DNA of 64,000 bases from Sideroxyarcus sp. (GTDB taxonomy: Bacteria > Pseudomonadota > Gammaproteobacteria > Burkholderiales > Gallionellaceae), in contig JAUSBC010000018.1 in NCBI GenBank assembly GCA_030652215.1, positions 1 to 64,000 on the forward strand, written 5' to 3'. Below are positions 2,255 to 42,356 of this stretch, one piece after another; position 1 is the stretch's first letter, and each line of letters opens with the position of its first letter. The notes beneath the pieces were generated by a model. It was not told where the DNA came from and searched no databases. It saw nothing but the letters and a program-made list of their open reading frames with translations. The translations under genes and the position numbers were made by a program.

Positions 2255-2831
<577 letters not shown>

Positions 2832-2903
2832 GACTGCGCCGATGTGACGGCAACCGGCCGACGCGCATTGCGCGCGGCGTGCTTCACCCAAAGACCCTTC
2901 CAA

Positions 2904-3638
2904 ATGAGCAACACTGAATCCCTAATCGCCCACCTGCTGGAATTGCGTTCGCGTCTGGTGAAGTCGGCCATCGTCCTGCTGGTGGTATTCCTTGGTCTGT
3001 TTCCCTGGGCGTCTGACTTGTATGCAATGCTGGCGCAGCCACTGCTGGCCAAGCTGCCGCAGGGCGGGCAAATGATCGCCACCGATGTCACCACGCCGTT
3101 CTTCGTACCGCTCAAGGTGACGATGATGGCGGCTTTCCTGATTGCGTTGCCTTTCGTGCTGTATCAGATATGGCGCTTCGTCGCGCCGGGATTGTATGCG
3201 CACGAAAAGAAGCTGGTGGTGCCGCTCATCGTCGCCAGTACGCTGCTGTTCTTCTGCGGCATGACTTTCGCCTATTTCGTGGTGTTCCCGGTGGTGTTCG
3301 GTTTTATCGTCGCGGCCGCCCCGCAAGGCGTGGCTGTGATGACCGACATCGACAAGTACCTCAGTTTCGTGATGGGCATGTTCATGGCGTTCGGCATTAC
3401 CTTTCAGGTGCCGGTGGTCGTGGTGGTGCTGGTGCGGATGGGGGTGGTGACGGTGGAGAAACTGCGCGATATACGGCGTTACGTCATCGTCGGGGCGTTT
3501 GTCATGGGCGCCATTTTCACCCCGCCCGATGTGGTGTCGCAGTTCATGCTGGCGATCCCGTTGTGGCTGCTGTACGAGGCGGGCATCGTGGTCTCGATCT
3601 GGGTAACGCCCCGGAAAAAGACGATCCCCGGGGCCTAG
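2904..3638 (+). CDS. tatC: Sec-independent translocase subunit TatC
   Basis: HLLELRSRLVKSA, polytopic membrane protein; start chosen at MSNTESLIAHLLELR. Confidence 0.94.
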   Translation: MSNTESLIAHLLELRSRLVKSAIVLLVVFLGLFPWASDLYAMLAQPLLAKLPQGGQMIATDVTTPFFVPLKVTMMAAFLIALPFVLYQIWRFVAPGLYAHEKKLVVPLIVASTLLFFCGMTFAYFVVFPVVFGFIVAAAPQGVAVMTDIDKYLSFVMGMFMAFGITFQVPVVVVVLVRMGVVTVEKLRDIRRYVIVGAFVMGAIFTPPDVVSQFMLAIPLWLLYEAGIVVSIWVTPRKKTIPGA

Positions 3639-3644
3639 CGTCCC

Positions 3645-4802
3645 TTATTCCTGTGGTTTGGGCTTGGGCCGCTTGCCCACTTTCACCTGAATGGCGACTT
3701 CGGACTGGTTGCGCAGCAATTTGAGCAGCGCAACCTTGCCCGGCGGCAGCGCGGAGATAGTCTCCAGCATGGCGGTGGAATCGGGCAGCGGTTTGTCGTC
3801 TATGCTGATGAGAATGTCGCCCGCCTTGATTCCCGATTTATCTGCCGGGCTGCCGCGCACCACTTCCGCGATCAGCACGCCCTGCGTGTCTTTCAGCTTG
3901 AACGATTCCGCCAGTTCCGGCGTGAGCTCCTGCACTGCAATACCGACCCAGCCGCGCGTTACCGAGCCGCTCTGGATGATCTGTTCCATGACCTTCTTGG
4001 CCGTGCTGGTGGGGATGGCGAAGCCGATGCCGAGCGAGCCGCCGCTGGGCGAGTAGATTGCGCTGTTGATGCCGAGCAGGTTGCCTTCCACATCCACTAG
4101 CGCGCCGCCGGAGTTGCCGGGGTTGATCGCGGCATCGGTCTGGATGAAGTTCTCGAAGGTGCTTAAGCCCAAGTGATTGCGTTTCAGCGCGCTCACGATG
4201 CCCATGGTCACGGTCTGGCCCACGCCGAACGGGTTGCCGACTGCCAGCACGATGTCGCCGACATGCGCCTGGTCGGATTGGCCGAAGGTGATGGCGGGCA
4301 GATTGTTGCCGATATCGACTTTGATTACGGCAAGATCGGTGTCCGGATCGGATCCGATGATATGTCCCTTGGCGGTGCGTCCGTCGGCGAAAGCCACTTC
4401 GATCTCGTCTGCGGTCTCCACCACATGATGGTTGGTGAGGATGTAGCCGTCATGGCTGACAATCACGCCGGAACCCAGGCTGGAGCTTTGTTGCGGGACA
4501 TTGTTGTCGAATTCGTCGCCGAAGAAGAAGCGGAAGCGCGGGTCGTCCATGAAGGGCGAGGTCGGCGTTTTCACTTCGCTGCTGGTGAAGATGTTCACCA
4601 CCGCGGGCATCACCTTCTGCGCGGCGCGGCTGAATCCCACTGTCGGTAAATCGCCGCCGCCGATGCCGGTGTTCTCGTACAGGGTCACCACTCCGCTGCG
4701 TGCCGCATTGGGCAGCAGCGAAGGACGCAGGGTATGGATGACAAACAGCATCGCGAGACCGACGGTGGTTGCTTGGGCGAACAGAAGCCAGAATTTGCGC
4801 AT
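3645..4802 (-). CDS. DegQ/DegS-like periplasmic serine protease with PDZ domain
   Basis: HHVVE...TDLAVIKV...NPGNSGGALVD catalytic motifs; one C-terminal PDZ. Confidence 0.92.
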   Translation of the reverse strand: MRKFWLLFAQATTVGLAMLFVIHTLRPSLLPNAARSGVVTLYENTGIGGGDLPTVGFSRAAQKVMPAVVNIFTSSEVKTPTSPFMDDPRFRFFFGDEFDNNVPQQSSSLGSGVIVSHDGYILTNHHVVETADEIEVAFADGRTAKGHIIGSDPDTDLAVIKVDIGNNLPAITFGQSDQAHVGDIVLAVGNPFGVGQTVTMGIVSALKRNHLGLSTFENFIQTDAAINPGNSGGALVDVEGNLLGINSAIYSPSGGSLGIGFAIPTSTAKKVMEQIIQSGSVTRGWVGIAVQELTPELAESFKLKDTQGVLIAEVVRGSPADKSGIKAGDILISIDDKPLPDSTAMLETISALPPGKVALLKLLRNQSEVAIQVKVGKRPKPKPQE

Positions 4803-4840
4803 GATATGATTTGAACAGCTAATTAGATGGGACGAACCCG

Positions 4841-5587
4841 ATGCGATTGACAGAGTTGCGCGATTATATCGAAAGCGAGCTTGCGGTCAGCCGATTTCGT
4901 GATTACTGCCCGAATGGCCTGCAAGTGGAAGGGCGGGCCGAAGTGCGGCGTATCGCCAGCGGCGTCACCGCGTCCCAGGCCGTACTGGAGGCCGCTACCG
5001 CCTGGGGAGCCGACGCCATTCTGGTGCACCACGGCTATTTCTGGCGCAGCGAAGACGCCGCCATCAGCGGCATCAAGAAACGCCGCGTGGCCCACCTGCT
5101 AAAACACGACGTCAGCCTGCTGGCCTACCATCTGCCGCTGGACGCCCACCCCGAATTCGGCAACAACGCCCAGCTCGGCGAAATGCTCGGGTTCATCGAA
5201 AAGGGACGTTTCGGCGAACAAGACATCGCCATGCACGGCGTGCTGGAGCATCCGCAAACTCTGCAGCAGCTTGCCCAGCTTGTGCAACATACCTTGCAGC
5301 GCGCCCCGCAAGTCATCGGCTATGCCAATCCCAATATTGCCCGTATCGCATGGTGCAGCGGGGGCGGGCAGGGGTATTTCGAGCAAGCTGTGGCACTGGG
5401 CGTGGACGCCTTTCTGACAGGCGAGATCTCGGAGCAGAACGTGCATGTGGCTCAGGAGACCGGCGTCGCTTTCATTGCTGCAGGACATCATGCGACCGAG
5501 CGTTACGGCGTGCAGGCATTGGGAGAGCATCTGGCGGAGCGTTTCGGCCTTGAGCACCGCTTCTTCGATCAGGATATCCCGGTCTAG
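4841..5587 (+). CDS. NIF3-like (GTP cyclohydrolase I type 2/YbgI family) protein
   Basis: YCPNGLQVEGR, AILVHHGYFWR, GHHATERYGVQAL. Confidence 0.92.
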   Translation: MRLTELRDYIESELAVSRFRDYCPNGLQVEGRAEVRRIASGVTASQAVLEAATAWGADAILVHHGYFWRSEDAAISGIKKRRVAHLLKHDVSLLAYHLPLDAHPEFGNNAQLGEMLGFIEKGRFGEQDIAMHGVLEHPQTLQQLAQLVQHTLQRAPQVIGYANPNIARIAWCSGGGQGYFEQAVALGVDAFLTGEISEQNVHVAQETGVAFIAAGHHATERYGVQALGEHLAERFGLEHRFFDQDIPV

Positions 5588-5628
5588 CTGCCGGTTGGCC
5601 TGACGGCAATCCATTGTTTTGCTGAAAG

Positions 5629-6054
5629 TTACTTCCTCGTTTCAATGTTCCCGGTCGCGAGATAGATTTCGCGCAGAAAACATATCAGCCCGGAAATCAG
5701 CGCCAGCATCGCGGAGATGAAGAACAGCGAAACCACCCGCGACGGATCTGCGCCGAGTTCGGAACCCGTAAACAGGGAGGCGATCACGATGCAGATGAAG
5801 AGCGCCGACAGCGTGCACAGACTCACCGCCCAATGAACCCAGCGCGCCCTGCGCCGCAGCATCGCCATCTCTGCCATGGGGGCGGGCAGCTTTGCTTCGC
5901 CGGAATTGCTCAGCGTCCTGGAACGATCAACGATACGGGAAATCCGGGTGGTGATCACGTTCAGGATCGCGCCGATGCCGGTCAGCAGGAAAACGGGGGC
6001 AACCGCCTGTTGAATGGCGTGGGCGACGGTCGTAATTTCGGCAACATTCTGCAT
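5629..6054 (-). CDS. DUF2721 family membrane protein
   Basis: MQNVAEITTVAHAIQQAVAPVFLLTGIGAILNVITTRISRIVDR; internal start within the 475-aa track ORF. Confidence 0.8.
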   Translation of the reverse strand: MQNVAEITTVAHAIQQAVAPVFLLTGIGAILNVITTRISRIVDRSRTLSNSGEAKLPAPMAEMAMLRRRARWVHWAVSLCTLSALFICIVIASLFTGSELGADPSRVVSLFFISAMLALISGLICFLREIYLATGNIETRK

Positions 6055-6107
6055 GACAATTCTCCACGATTTGGATCGGACCGGGGCGCTACTCCCGTTG
6101 ATGTGCT

Positions 6108-6857
6108 TCAGTTTCGGGCGTGCGAAAGCGCGAAGTCTTCCACGCCCTGCAGGGTGCTCAGCCCGCTGGCAAGCTCGTTCATGGGGGAGCCGCTGCTTTT
6201 GCTGAGGGCGATGGCGACGAAGCGCCATTCCAGTTTTTCGCTGCTGGAGCGGATGGAGAAGGAGCCGGTGGCGACCTCGTAACCGTGGGAGTAAACGACT
6301 TCGCGCAGGGTGTTTTCCTGCGGCACGAAGTTCTTCTCGAATTCGAGCGTGATGGCAATGGCCGGGCGCGATGGCAGCCAGTTTTCGAGTTTGGAGATCC
6401 ACATCATGCTCATGGCCGAGATGAGTGTGAGCAGTATCGCTGCGGCATAAAAACCGACGCCGACCATGATGCCGATGGCGGAGCAGGTCCAGATGGACGC
6501 GGCGGTGGTGAGGCCGCTGATGTTGAGTCCATCGCGCATGATGACGCCCGCGCCGAGAAAGCCGATGCCGGTCACGATGCCCTGGATGATGCGGGTGGGG
6601 TCGCCTGAAAGATAAGAGTTGGCCTGGCCGCCGAACCAGAAAGTGGGGTATCCGGCGATTACGGTGAGGGAGGCCGCAGCCATGCATACCAGCCCGTAAG
6701 TGCGCATCCCGGCCGCGCGACCGTGATACGACCGTTCGTACCCGACAATCAGCCCGAGTGCGAGGGCACCCAGCAGATTGAGAAAGACGATTATGTTGAT
6801 CGCCACTTCCGGGGCAGACCAGTAAGTCGATAGCTGTGCAAGCGACAGTGCGTCCAT
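6108..6857 (-). CDS. MgtC/SapB family membrane protein
   Basis: GYERSYHGRAAGMRTYGLVCMAAA, GIVTGIGFLGAGVIMRDG..ISGLTTAASIW. Confidence 0.93.
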   Translation of the reverse strand: MDALSLAQLSTYWSAPEVAINIIVFLNLLGALALGLIVGYERSYHGRAAGMRTYGLVCMAAASLTVIAGYPTFWFGGQANSYLSGDPTRIIQGIVTGIGFLGAGVIMRDGLNISGLTTAASIWTCSAIGIMVGVGFYAAAILLTLISAMSMMWISKLENWLPSRPAIAITLEFEKNFVPQENTLREVVYSHGYEVATGSFSIRSSSEKLEWRFVAIALSKSSGSPMNELASGLSTLQGVEDFALSHARN

Positions 6858-7308
6858 TCGGGCTCACCCTTTGGGTTATATGGCTGGAGTGTACAAGAAT
6901 CGGACCGGGATTTCTGCCGCGCGGTGATGAGCCGAATAGCGGCTTTTTATCATTTGGGGCGCTTTCGGGCGGTTGGCGGAGCTTATCCTGCTGCGGCCGG
7001 TTTGAGGCGCCGAAACCGGCAACCGGGCTTGGGGCGGTCTGTCCGGGCATATTCATAACCGCCTGTTCGGCTGGGTTTTCCCTCCAAACCCCTATAACCG
7101 TGCTTGCAGCAGGTAGGGTTACTGGGTAATATCAGCGTTTGTTAATGGTTGCAGTTCGATTTTGGAGACCTGCCTTGGCAATATTGGGCTCCGTTCGGTG
7201 CCCGATTTCCGAAACAACCAGTGGCGTGCATACAAGGTTTTTACCGGCCAGAACCAGAGCGTTCCGGCCGAGATATTGCGATTTTTTCTTTAAGAAGGGA
7301 TGAGAGTC

Positions 7309-7905
7309 ATGACTGATAATGTAGATCGCAGCAAGCGGCGACTATTGCTTGCTGCCACCTCGGCGGCGGGTGGTGTTGCTGCAGCTGGTATGGCAACACC
7401 GTTTGTAATGAGCTTCATGCCGAGCGAGCGAGCCAAAGCCGCCGGCGCACCGGTTGAGGTGGATATCAGCGCCATCGAACCCGGCACCATGAAGGTCGTC
7501 GAGTGGCAGGGCAAGCCGGTATGGGTTGTACGCCGTACTCCCGAAATGCTGGATCTGCTCGCCAAACATGACGGCGAACTGACCGATCCGACCGGTGCAA
7601 TTCCGCAGCAACCCGACTACTGCAACAACGTAAACCGTTCCATCAAGCCGGAGATTTTTGTGGTTGTCGGTATCTGCACCCACTTGGGATGCTCCCCGAG
7701 CTACCGTCCGGAACTGGCGCCTGCCGATCTCGGCGCCAACTGGGGCGGCGGCTGGTTCTGTCCTTGCCACGGTTCCCGCTTCGACATGTCTGCCCGCGTT
7801 TACCAGGGTTCTCCAGCTCCGACCAATATGATCGTCCCTCCGCACCAATACCTCAGCGAAACCGTGCTGCTGATCGGCGATGACACGAAAAAGGGAGCTG
7901 CATAA
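7309..7905 (+). CDS. petA: Ubiquinol-cytochrome c reductase iron-sulfur (Rieske) subunit
   Basis: N-terminal SKRRLLL (Tat-like), CTHLGC and CPCHGSRFD cluster motifs; alternative start at 7300. Confidence 0.95.
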   Translation: MTDNVDRSKRRLLLAATSAAGGVAAAGMATPFVMSFMPSERAKAAGAPVEVDISAIEPGTMKVVEWQGKPVWVVRRTPEMLDLLAKHDGELTDPTGAIPQQPDYCNNVNRSIKPEIFVVVGICTHLGCSPSYRPELAPADLGANWGGGWFCPCHGSRFDMSARVYQGSPAPTNMIVPPHQYLSETVLLIGDDTKKGAA

Positions 7906-9140
7906 TGAAACTTTTGAAAAACATGCTGGGCTGGGTTGACGAACGCTTTCCCGTGATCGAAACCTGGGAATACCATCTTTCCAAGTATTACGCGCCGAAA
8001 AACTTCAATTTCTGGTATTTCTTCGGCTCCCTCGCGCTGCTGGTTCTGGTCATCCAGATCGTCAGCGGCATCTTCCTGACCATGAGTTACAAGCCGGATG
8101 CGCTGCTCGCCTTTGCTTCGGTCGAGTACATCATGCGCGACGTGCAATCGGGCTGGCTGATCCGTTACATTCACTCCACCGGCGCCTCCATGTTCTTCGT
8201 GGTGGTGTACCTGCACATGTTCCGCGGCATGATCTACGGCTCTTATCGCAAGCCGCGCGAATTGCTGTGGATCATCGGCGTGGTCATCTATCTGGCACTC
8301 ATGGCAGAAGCCTTCCTGGGTTATCTGTTGCCTTGGGGACAAATGTCGTTCTGGGGCGCGCAGGTGATCGTTAACCTGTTCTCTTCCGTGCCGTTCGTAG
8401 GCAACGAGCTGTCCGTGCTGATCCGCGGTGACTTCGTGATTTCGGACGCCACGCTGAACCGTTTCTTCGCGCTACACGTAATCGCGGTTCCTCTGGCATT
8501 GGCAGGCCTGGTGTTCGTGCACCTTGTTGCCCTGCATCATGTGGGTTCCAACAACCCCGATGGCATCGAGATCAAGAAGAACAAGGACGCCAATGGCATC
8601 CCGCTGGATGGCATTCCCTTCTTCCCGTACATGGTGGTGAAGGATATCGTGGCCGTGGTGCTGTTCTTCATCGTGTTCTGCGCAATTGTGTTCTTCGCGC
8701 CTGACATGGGCGGTTACTTCATCGAAGCCAATAACTTCGTGCCGGCCAACCCGATGCAGACCCCGGCTCACATTGCCCCGGTTTGGTACTTCACTCCGTA
8801 CTACGCCATTCTGCGTGCGGTACCGCCAATGTTCGGTTCGCAGTTCCCGGGCGTGATTGCCATGGGTATCAGCGCCATTGCTGTCGTCTTCCTGCCTTGG
8901 CTGGATCGCGGCAAGGTCAAGTCGATCCGCTATCGTGGCCCGATCTACAAGGCATTCTTGGCTTCTTTCGTGATCAGCTTTATCGGCCTCGGCTATCTGG
9001 GCGTGATGCCTGTAACGCCCACCTATACGCTGATCTCCCAAGTGCTGTCGGTGGTGTACTTTGCATTCTTCATCTTGATGCCCTGGTATACCAAGATCGA
9101 CAAGTGCAAGCCCGAGCCTGATCGTGTGACGTTCAAATAA
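7905..9140 (+). CDS. petB: Cytochrome b
   Basis: Multi-TM protein with LPWGQMSFWGAQVI, RFFALHVIAVPLALAGLVFVHLVALH. Confidence 0.96.
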   Translation: MKLLKNMLGWVDERFPVIETWEYHLSKYYAPKNFNFWYFFGSLALLVLVIQIVSGIFLTMSYKPDALLAFASVEYIMRDVQSGWLIRYIHSTGASMFFVVVYLHMFRGMIYGSYRKPRELLWIIGVVIYLALMAEAFLGYLLPWGQMSFWGAQVIVNLFSSVPFVGNELSVLIRGDFVISDATLNRFFALHVIAVPLALAGLVFVHLVALHHVGSNNPDGIEIKKNKDANGIPLDGIPFFPYMVVKDIVAVVLFFIVFCAIVFFAPDMGGYFIEANNFVPANPMQTPAHIAPVWYFTPYYAILRAVPPMFGSQFPGVIAMGISAIAVVFLPWLDRGKVKSIRYRGPIYKAFLASFVISFIGLGYLGVMPVTPTYTLISQVLSVVYFAFFILMPWYTKIDKCKPEPDRVTFK

Positions 9141-39423: not shown

Positions 39424-39481
39424 CTCGGCCTTACCGGACGGTAGCGGCTCGTCGAGATATGTCATTTCTGAACGTCCGCTC
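39424..39481 (-). repeat. Left 58-bp inverted repeat bounding the restriction-modification cassette
   Basis: Reverse complement matches 42200-42257 at 43/58 ungapped (hand count). Confidence 0.8.
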
Positions 39482-39521
39482 ATTTGATTTCTAAAACCCC
39501 ATATCTAACCTCTAAGTTTTT

Positions 39522-40205
39522 TCATTCATTCACGCCAGTCTTGGGGCACAAAGCTGATATGGGACATTCATCGCAGCGGGGATGGGATGGCGTACAAATC
39601 TCGCGTCCGAGCGAAATCATGTTCACGTGTAGCGAGTAACGAAGCTCCGGCGGGATTTTGGATTGCAGGCGATCCATGTCGCGCGGTGCGCAATGCTTGT
39701 CCTTATGTGTTGGCCTGACCCAGCCGAGACGCCGGGCGATGCGCCAGCAATGCGTATCCACTGGAAAAACCTGCCTGCCCAGTGAATACATCAAAACACA
39801 GCGCGCCACTTTCTTGCCGACTCCCGGCAACGACAACAGGAAAGCTTCGGCATCCTCGTTGCTCATTTTGCGCAACGGCTTCAGCGTAGGCTCGCCGAAC
39901 TTTTCCACAATGATGTCAAGTAGATTGCGGATCGCCTTCGCTTTCTGGTTCGACAGGCCACCACTGACGATGGGACGTGCGATATATTCGGCAGGCGCTT
40001 CGGCGATTTGGTGGTGAGTGGGGAAAGTTTCTTTCAGCGAGCGGTAGGTGCTGCGGTAACTCGCTTCGCCGGTCTTGGTGCTACAAATGATGAAAAGTAA
40101 TTCGTCCAGCGGATTTTTGAGGTTGTAGTGATTGAAATCGCCATAGTGAGTTTGAAGTTCGGCAGCGACATCAAAAACAGCTGAAGGGTATTTTGTGGAG
40201 GCCAT
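39522..40205 (-). CDS. Endonuclease III-like HhH-GPD base excision DNA glycosylase with 4Fe-4S loop
   Basis: LPGVGKKVARCVLMYSLGRQVFPVDTHCWRI; CTPSHPRCDECPISALC (C-x6-C-x2-C-x5-C). Confidence 0.92.
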   Translation of the reverse strand: MASTKYPSAVFDVAAELQTHYGDFNHYNLKNPLDELLFIICSTKTGEASYRSTYRSLKETFPTHHQIAEAPAEYIARPIVSGGLSNQKAKAIRNLLDIIVEKFGEPTLKPLRKMSNEDAEAFLLSLPGVGKKVARCVLMYSLGRQVFPVDTHCWRIARRLGWVRPTHKDKHCAPRDMDRLQSKIPPELRYSLHVNMISLGREICTPSHPRCDECPISALCPKTGVNE

Positions 40206-40278
40206 TTGGCAAAGGCCTACTGGGCAGCGGCCTCTATCTTTGCAACAAGGCCTTTCATGCTACTGATTATGGATGCCG

Positions 40279-41460
40279 TCAAGGCCTTGCCCTATAAGAC
40301 TGTTTCATGTCAAAAGAAGCATTCAGCATCCCCAACTTGGCCGCCAACGCTCGGCCTATCGTCTCGCCCAGCAGTACCGGCACCGCATTCCCAATCTGGC
40401 GCATCGCCTCGCCCCATGCGCCCTTGATGACGAAGCTGTCTGGAAATGTCTGTATCCGTTTCGCCTCGCACACCGTGAAATAACGGACGCGGCCATCCGA
40501 ATAGCGGATCATGTTTTCCCCGCCCGGCACTCCGTGACCTCCCGCCTTGATGGTTTTTGCAGGCCAGTCAATATCGCTGCCTGTGTGGCCGGGATAGGTG
40601 CGCGCACCATCGTGATAGACGTGATCGCCGATTCCGTGTTGCGCTTCTGGAGCGGGGATGCCTTGCAGCGCATCTCTGACTGTGCGCCAAGGCAGTTGCT
40701 CCGGCGCGAACATGCCGTACTTGCCTTTCAAACGAACAATCTTCTCTTTCAGGAGTTCAGTCATCGGCGCACGTTCCGATTCCGGCACGTGGTGACGTTT
40801 CCAATATTCACCTGAAACGTACATCTCCCAAAGCAATCTATCTTCGGAATGCGTTTCTGCGGGGAACGACCAGGACACACACAGATCAGATCTGGTGCCG
40901 ACGATAACAACGCGCTCACGCGTTTGTGGAACGCCATAATTGGCCGCGTTGACTAGCTTGAACGATACATCGTATTTTGTTCCTGCATAGGAAAGCTGGC
41001 CAATGCTGCGCAGGTCGGATAAATGCTCCTTCCAGTCCGCGTTGGGTTTTGCAGCAAATCCCGGGTAGGTAAGCCGCAGGATGATGTATTCGAAATAATC
41101 CGCAAACGACTCACGCAGCAGGCCCTTGACGTTCTCAAACACGAAGGCTTTGGGGGTAAGTTGCTCGATGGCCCGGATGGCATAAGGGAACATGTCGCGG
41201 CTATCCTGATCTGCTTTATGTTTTCCGCCCAATGAAAATGGCTGGCAAGGTGGGCCGCCCGCGACGATATCCACACCGGCCAGGGTCGAGAAGTCGAAAT
41301 CTTTAATATCGCCAAAAAAAACTTTTTCCGCATCGAAGTTTTCATTGAGTGACGCGCAGGCATGCTTGTTAAATTCCACGAACGCGGAGTGCTGGAAACC
41401 AGCAAGCTCGAGCCCTTTAGCCAATCCGCCCGCTCCGGAAAAAATCTCCAATGACTTCAT
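40279..41460 (-). CDS. DNA (cytosine-5) methyltransferase, type II
   Basis: EIFSGAGGLAKGLELAGF, GGPPCQPFSLGG, FVFENVKGLL, QIGNAVPVLL. Confidence 0.95.
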   Translation of the reverse strand: MKSLEIFSGAGGLAKGLELAGFQHSAFVEFNKHACASLNENFDAEKVFFGDIKDFDFSTLAGVDIVAGGPPCQPFSLGGKHKADQDSRDMFPYAIRAIEQLTPKAFVFENVKGLLRESFADYFEYIILRLTYPGFAAKPNADWKEHLSDLRSIGQLSYAGTKYDVSFKLVNAANYGVPQTRERVVIVGTRSDLCVSWSFPAETHSEDRLLWEMYVSGEYWKRHHVPESERAPMTELLKEKIVRLKGKYGMFAPEQLPWRTVRDALQGIPAPEAQHGIGDHVYHDGARTYPGHTGSDIDWPAKTIKAGGHGVPGGENMIRYSDGRVRYFTVCEAKRIQTFPDSFVIKGAWGEAMRQIGNAVPVLLGETIGRALAAKLGMLNASFDMKQSYRARP

Positions 41461-42104
41461 GGTTTGCGCTCGACTTTATTCAAGTGTTTTTTGATCTTTG
41501 CAAGGATTGCGCTATCTGCCGCATGAGTGCCATTGCATTTTTCTGCCCAAGCTCGTCCCGGATGAATAACATCCCAATCCGATTTGGCTTGCTCATAACG
41601 CCCTTTGCCGGGGTCGTGGTTGCCGAAACCATCCACGGCAGTATTCCATAGAGGCATATTCAATTTGATTAGCGCGGCTTCGATGGTGCTGATCATATCT
41701 GAACTGGCATCTTCAAAAATAACGAAACGGCACATGAAGTCATGCAGATTCAGCCCTTGAGCATTTTTGATGTTACGGCTGTGCTCCCTGAGTCGGCCAA
41801 TTAGTTCTTTGGATTGTTCAAGTTGATTGTCGGAAACCCGCGCTTGGCGCCAGCCCTTGGGCACAGCCTTGCCGACATAGATTGGGTAGCTGTAAGACAA
41901 CCGATTAAGCTCGGCATATTTTTTGTATATGGGATTCTTGCCCGTGTAATAGATGGCATAAACACCTGTGCCGTGAAAAGATTCCGGCGGTGGGAGGGGG
42001 TGAACGGGTGTGCCATTGAAGAACCTGACCGCATCTTTGACGAGCTCGGCAAAGGCGTCGTTTTTGTATACGTGTTCACTTCTATCGAAAGGCCTTGATT
42101 TCAT
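41457..42104 (-). CDS. Eco29kI-like GIY-YIG type II restriction endonuclease
   Basis: GTGVYAIYYTGKNPIYKKYAELN...YPIYVGKAVPKGWRQ; ATGA overlap with methyltransferase. Confidence 0.85.
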   Translation of the reverse strand: MKSRPFDRSEHVYKNDAFAELVKDAVRFFNGTPVHPLPPPESFHGTGVYAIYYTGKNPIYKKYAELNRLSYSYPIYVGKAVPKGWRQARVSDNQLEQSKELIGRLREHSRNIKNAQGLNLHDFMCRFVIFEDASSDMISTIEAALIKLNMPLWNTAVDGFGNHDPGKGRYEQAKSDWDVIHPGRAWAEKCNGTHAADSAILAKIKKHLNKVERKP

Positions 42105-42199
42105 GAGTGTGTAACGCGCTTGGTCTGGTCGAACCGCATTTTCTCATGTTGGCATGGTAAATGCACCAAGTGCACTTCAGGAGAAGTGAGTTGTTAGGA

Positions 42200-42257
42200 G
42201 AGCGGACGCTCAGAAGTGGGTTAACTCGATTTGCCACCGGCGTCCGCAAAGGCCGAG
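42200..42257 (+). repeat. Right 58-bp inverted repeat bounding the restriction-modification cassette
   Basis: Matches reverse complement of 39424-39481 at 43/58 ungapped. Confidence 0.8.
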
Positions 42258-42356
42258 CACGAATCGTCGAGTTCTAACGGGCCGACCGGACGCTTGGAGT
42301 GGATACGTGAGCGTGCTTGCGGAAATTCATGGCCGCAAAGCTGCCAATTACCGCCT

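Follow-up and report, generated by a model that had tools for sequence, protein, structure and literature searches.

A Candidate Anti-Mutator DNA Glycosylase Accompanying C5-Cytosine Restriction-Modification Systems in the Gallionellaceae

What is an endonuclease III (EndoIII)-like DNA glycosylase doing behind a restriction-modification (R-M) pair? The question is raised by a 64,000-nucleotide stretch of a Sideroxyarcus sp. genome (assembly GCA_030652215.1, contig JAUSBC010000018.1, positions 1 to 64,000; hereafter the window), in which genes for an Eco29kI-type nuclease, a C5-cytosine methyltransferase and a helix-hairpin-helix (HhH) glycosylase lie between two inverted 58-mers (Table 1). Cytosine-C5 methylation is mutagenic, and a preliminary description of the locus had proposed both that the glycosylase is the anti-mutator partner of the methyltransferase and that the three genes moved as a cassette via their end repeats. 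The same glycosylase is found beside several different C5 R-M systems in the Gallionellaceae, which suggests that it repairs mutations caused by methylation. It is likely to be a portable, system-independent EndoIII-like enzyme that repairs thymine:guanine (T:G) mismatches arising from deamination of 5-methylcytosine (5mC), thereby doing the job of Vsr.

Association with C5 Methyltransferases and Vsr

The glycosylase is patchily distributed, occurring in 25 of 158 Gallionellaceae genomes and in seven of 15 genera, with three copies in one genome. In raw counts over these genomes, with kinship ignored, a C5 methyltransferase (PF00145) is present in 23/25 carriers versus 70/133 non-carriers (Fisher p = 1.1e-4), and the mean number of PF00145 matches per genome is 3.1 in carriers versus 1.0 in non-carriers. 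The control N6/N4 methyltransferase (PF01555) shows no association (17/25 carriers versus 88/133 non-carriers, p = 0.53). The Eco29kI nuclease is found in 10 of the 158 genomes, nine of which carry the glycosylase (p = 1.4e-7). Co-occurrence of the glycosylase with Eco29kI pairs, a check suggested in the preliminary description, is seen within this family. No glycosylase lies near 12 Eco29kI loci sampled outside the Gallionellaceae, several of which are on contigs that end within ~2 kb.

Gene neighbourhoods were compared for the window and 27 further Gallionellaceae loci (given L numbers below), making 28 glycosylase copies. A C5 methyltransferase lies within 6 kb of 13 of the 28, and L228 has one more, a truncated stub. 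Nine other copies have a contig edge 0.2-2.4 kb upstream, and at the remaining five (L214, L223, L229, L230 and L231) about 4 kb or more of upstream sequence is free of a C5 methyltransferase. When the count is restricted to intact copies whose upstream sequence reaches 3 kb or more, 11 of 13 have one there. The neighbouring systems are of several types. An Eco29kI R-M system is upstream of the glycosylase in the window, L210, L212, L216, L217 and L225, with remnants in L208 and L228. The other types are a C5 methyltransferase with an MvaI/BcnI nuclease (L212, L220, L232), with a GHKL ATPase (L209, L217, L233), or with an AAA protein and a DUF2357/PDDEXK_7 nuclease (L226; the nuclease type also at L231), and an EcoO109I-type nuclease (L227). 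The upstream gene is separated from the glycosylase gene by 1-40 nt at L209, L217, L226, L227, L231 and L232. In five loci the Eco29kI pair is separated from the glycosylase by an additional C5 methyltransferase, indicating turnover of the R-M content around the glycosylase. Some glycosylase copies are truncated or frameshifted (L228-L234).

Individual loci show further features. Among the GHKL-type loci, L209 adds a receiver-like protein, and these loci have no recognised nuclease apart from a weak SduA match in L217. The L226 genes form a compact operon (2521-8724) in the order C5 methyltransferase, AAA protein, DUF2357/PDDEXK_7 nuclease and, 1 nt on, glycosylase; at L231 the same nuclease type precedes a truncated glycosylase. 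On the minus strand of L227 (8705-9625), the EcoO109I-type nuclease is followed by a Vsr-like open reading frame and, 1 nt on, by the glycosylase. The first 28 residues of this reading frame are Vsr-like (E 7e-6) and are fused to an unrelated domain, so it could be what is left of a Vsr gene. In L173 (3507-6698, minus strand), a type IV methyl-directed restriction enzyme has a truncated Eco29kI methyltransferase on one side and a truncated glycosylase on the other. In several genera the glycosylase gene is directly upstream of prlC, a recurrent site (nine loci: L209, L210, L212, L213, L217, L219, L220, L226 and L228); the window copy occupies a different site, in the interval from a PAS-GGDEF-EAL gene to dbpA.

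Vsr is present in 38 genomes of the Gallionellaceae set. When the 6 kb around each of 150 listed C5 loci are compared, Vsr alone is found at 33, the glycosylase alone at 14, both at one and neither at 102, a pattern that suggests alternatives but is not significant on its own (p = 0.19). The sole locus with both nearby is L220. Both kinds of partner also occur in the window's own genome, where a second C5 methyltransferase (contig C122, 11359-12924) has Vsr 0.4 kb downstream.

The link to C5 methylation appears to be specific to this glycosylase subfamily, as 29 loci of distant homologs (~30% identity) have no C5 methyltransferase within 1.5 kb flanks. A scan covering 84,980 species, with one genome per species, gave close orthologs (86-91% identity) in the Gallionellaceae only; it needs exact peptide matches and may let more distant members escape. 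Among the matches listed from 399 phylum-wide genomes, there was no homolog above ~40% identity beyond the window's own. A search of viral contigs yielded no copy of the glycosylase, and phage and plasmid matches to it reach at most 36% identity.

Family, Conserved Residues and Fold of the Glycosylase

The window protein contains an HhH-GPD domain (Pfam 1.1e-12, 48.7 bits versus a cut-off of 26.2) and a cluster loop matching EndIII_4Fe-2S (1.1e-4, 22.7 bits versus a cut-off of 20.5), and no match to the Vsr fold (PF03852) is among its Pfam hits. Full-length copies of the glycosylase are 77-91% identical, and the four cluster cysteines are kept in 20 orthologs. Lys132 and Asp150, at the catalytic positions of EndoIII, are invariant in these 20, as are the motifs LPGVGxKxARCV, FPVDTHCWRIA and CSTKTxE. 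The last of these is family-specific and, in a hand alignment, puts Lys44 at the position of the Nth wedge residue Gln41. The median ratio of nonsynonymous to synonymous substitution rates is 0.11 over 190 ortholog pairs, indicating strong purifying selection.

The protein scores below the cut-offs of the NCBIfam nth model (TIGR01083; 85.7 versus 211.7) and of the NCBIfam Deinococcus monofunctional glycosylase model (121.9 versus 400 bits). In the tree it falls in a clade of its own (support 100/99), apart from the nth of the same genome (L265), which clusters with the same-class homologs L082 and L095. Clustering with the housekeeping nth, which would have counted against the preliminary description, is thus not seen. 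Its proposal of an anti-mutator role fared well in one respect: the separate clade, the association with C5 and not N6/N4 methyltransferases and the recurrence beside unrelated C5 R-M modules identify a non-housekeeping partner of C5 methylation, for which T:G remains the predicted substrate. The nearest solved structures by sequence are Deinococcus EndoIII-1, other EndoIII enzymes, plant ROS1 and then Mig.Mth. An AlphaFold model (pLDDT 80.7, pTM 0.80) matches EndoIII structures, ROS1 on a T:G mismatch (7yho; TM-score over the query, TMq, 0.79) and Mig.Mth (TMq 0.74). The PADLOC nicking-endonuclease model also matches the glycosylase, which hints that related proteins have already been catalogued with R-M systems.

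Comparison with Known Systems

There is a known precedent for a link between an HhH glycosylase and C5 methylation. Mig.Mth (Mig.MthI) of Methanothermobacter shares the HhH superfamily and 4Fe-4S loop with the window protein and counters 5mC deamination (PMC2714593, PMC9266487). Its structure (1kea) is matched in both sequence and fold, with 22% identity in the fold alignment and a GLSNQ+A stretch common to both proteins. A genetic link to a C5 methyltransferase is likewise a property of both. In contrast to Mig.Mth, which has Tyr126 (PMC2714593), the window glycosylase has the catalytic Lys132 found in all 20 orthologs, and in contrast to the Mig.Mth case, a single family here is found beside several unrelated bacterial C5 R-M systems. 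Our literature search, with subscription papers mostly outside it, returned no such glycosylase recurring with several unrelated bacterial R-M types.

Vsr has a role like the one proposed here, undoing the T:G mismatches that result from 5mC deamination, and it neighbours C5 methyltransferases at other Gallionellaceae C5 loci. Its fold and chemistry differ, however, as Vsr nicks the backbone whereas the glycosylase would excise a base. The best match in sequence and fold is to EndoIII, including Deinococcus EndoIII-1 (8a5c, 4unf; 31-32% identity), which has the same catalytic Lys/Asp arrangement; unlike EndoIII, the window glycosylase gene is patchy, R-M-linked and in a clade apart from the nth of its own genome. 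The HhH-GPD domain and 4Fe-4S cluster are also shared with ROS1/DEMETER, the family of the 7yho match. These are large multidomain plant proteins that excise 5mC itself, an activity that would harm the host here.

The window glycosylase is a bacterial, non-thermophilic candidate for T:G glycosylase activity, which is rare. Two questions can now be tested: whether a C5 R-M system brings or acquires its own anti-mutator, and whether Vsr and an HhH glycosylase can replace each other.

Proposed Mechanism

The following mechanism can be proposed. First, the M.Eco29kI-type enzyme would methylate the second C of CCGCGG. Deamination of this 5mC to T would then place CTGCGG opposite CCGCGG, and the glycosylase would excise the mispaired T. 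Lys132, as a Schiff-base lysine, would probably also cut the resulting apurinic/apyrimidinic (AP) site, giving the enzyme a predicted AP-lyase activity. Finally, host base-excision repair would restore C. Because members of the family stand beside several unrelated C5 R-M systems in the Gallionellaceae, the glycosylase is not tied to CCGCGG and its action on T:G/uracil:guanine is probably independent of sequence or only weakly dependent on it. The gonococcal Vsr V.NgoAXIV has been assayed on the CTGCGG/CCGCGG mismatch (PMC6116569), and Mig.Mth is an HhH glycosylase for T:G that acts against 5mC deamination and loses its T:G activity in the Y126S mutant (PMC2714593).

Alternative Explanations

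Several findings weigh against a T:G repair function. An EndoIII lysine occupies the place of Tyr126 of Mig.Mth, making an oxidised-pyrimidine substrate possible. Contig ends are too near to tell what lies upstream at 9/28 loci, and the intact copies L214 and L223 have 8 kb upstream without a C5 methyltransferase, although their genomes have one elsewhere. Eco29kI systems outside the Gallionellaceae are without the glycosylase in the sequence available. The exclusion between Vsr and the glycosylase at the 150 listed C5 loci is not significant by itself. Additionally, the genome counts ignore phylogeny, and carriers could be richer in R-M systems generally; the latter point is countered by the lack of association with N6/N4 methyltransferases.

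One alternative is that the protein is a surplus EndoIII paralog acting on oxidised pyrimidines, which shares defence islands with R-M genes only by coincidence. Such a paralog would be consistent with Lys132 and Asp150, which are as in bifunctional EndoIII, with EndoIII enzymes as the nearest solved structures, with the copies at L214 and L223 that stand without R-M genes, and with the recurrent site beside prlC. It is harder to reconcile with an association that involves C5 but not N6/N4 methyltransferases, with the tight spacing behind different R-M genes, and with a genome that already has its own nth, and we regard it as unlikely. Alternatively, the protein could be an immune effector, the HhH base-excision arm of a C5 R-M system that removes 5-hydroxymethylcytosine (5hmC)-like bases from nuclease-resistant phage DNA and spares host 5mC. 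An enzyme that removed 5mC would damage methylated sites of its own host, and it is with 5mC-making enzymes that the glycosylase is associated. We consider this explanation very improbable, even though 5hmC glycosylases such as Brig3 can confer phage defence (PMC13160076), base-excision restriction enzymes exist (PMC10273834), the sequence and fold are near the plant 5mC glycosylase ROS1, and a type IV methyl-directed enzyme lies by the broken glycosylase copy of L173.

The remaining explanation concerns the locus as a whole, namely that the three genes travel as one mobile cassette with the 58-bp inverted repeats as its ends, as the preliminary description had it. In its favour, the inverted repeat greatly exceeds chance expectation and has no further copy in the genome. 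However, the left arm is the trailer of the glycosylase gene in relatives and the right arm is in none of the 27 other loci, the boundaries of the R-M module are distinct from those of the glycosylase module, and there is no clean empty site among the seven relatives inspected, in which the neighbours downstream of dbpA vary. Movement of the three genes by way of the 58-mers was therefore not borne out and is highly doubtful.

Organization of the Locus

Table 1. Features of the window between and including the inverted 58-mers.
Feature	Position	Strand	Basis or remark
Eco29kI-type GIY-YIG restriction endonuclease, 215 aa	41457..42104	minus	Pfam, phmmer
C5-cytosine DNA methyltransferase, M.Eco29kI type, 393 aa	40279..41460	minus	Pfam, identity
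HhH-GPD / [4Fe-4S] EndoIII-like DNA glycosylase, 227 aa	39522..40205	minus	Pfam, fold, conserved motifs
Left arm of inverted repeat, trailer DNA 3' of glycosylase gene	39424..39481	plus	43/58 to right arm
Right arm of inverted repeat	42200..42257	minus	43/58 to left arm; this genome only

The nuclease gene is first, and its stop overlaps the methyltransferase start (ATGA); the glycosylase gene begins 73 nt past the methyltransferase stop. Only these three genes lie between the 58-mers. The open reading frame coordinates and Pfam domains thus agree with the preliminary description, which had reported three co-oriented minus-strand genes with an ATGA overlap and nothing else enclosed. Scans for promoters and terminators gave no more matches than in shuffled sequence, and the three genes are presumably co-transcribed.

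The nuclease matches Pfam RE_Eco29kI (244.7 bits, E 5.1e-73; cut-off 30.8) and aligns with the R.Eco29kI structure (3mx1) across 207 residues (phmmer 1e-94). It is 65% identical to plasmid Eco29kI enzymes and 69% identical to the gonococcal enzyme. The methyltransferase (Pfam DNA_methylase, 6.2e-60) is 70% identical to the methyltransferase that adjoins the two Eco29kI nucleases nearest to the window enzyme among the phylum-wide genomes. M.Eco29kI acts on the second C of CCGCGG, yielding m5C, and pECO29 has the nuclease-first order with a stop/start overlap (PMC3039593). The nuclease family, gene order and overlap of the window pair are therefore those of the Eco29kI/NgoAIII type II systems (CCGCGG), to which the glycosylase gene is an addition. 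By homology, the pair is predicted to be an Eco29kI-type R-M system that would recognise CCGCGG and methylate its second C. The frequency of CCGCGG is 0.49 of expectation in the window versus 0.52 in relatives without the system, making the depletion uninformative.

The Inverted 58-mers

The two arms match at 43/58 positions in inverted orientation without gaps, and their first nine and last nine positions are identical. The best ungapped 58-mer match among 500 Markov-resampled intergenic pairs has a maximum of 34 (mean 28.3, sd 1.2), confirming the inverted repeat of the preliminary description as real. Its core, TTCTGANCGTCCGCT, is found in the whole genome at the two arms only, allowing at most one mismatch, so that it is not a genome-wide element. 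Scans for the core motif in 150 genomes of the order, viral contigs, plasmids and 61 relatives gave chance-level matches only, so the arms do not belong to any widely distributed repeat.

Homologs of the left arm occur in the glycosylase trailers of L208 (42/58) and L221 (38/58), where the upstream genes differ. Homology at these two loci continues from the glycosylase gene through the arm, and the left arm is therefore best described as trailer DNA. At a threshold of 34/58, none of the 27 related loci contains the right arm, save for a match via the left-arm copy in L208. At the remaining loci homology ends at or inside the glycosylase gene, and at most loci the glycosylase gene and the R-M pair each form a block of homology with ends of its own. 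The downstream neighbours of dbpA vary among the seven relatives inspected, giving no clean empty-site join. A mobile cassette bounded by the 58-mers is thus not supported, as the same arms flank no other unit at the 27 other loci. By the right arm, the window at 42257-42300 contains the GC-rich blocks CGTCGAGTT and GGCCGACCGGACG, which resemble parts of the arms and look like a decayed composite repeat.
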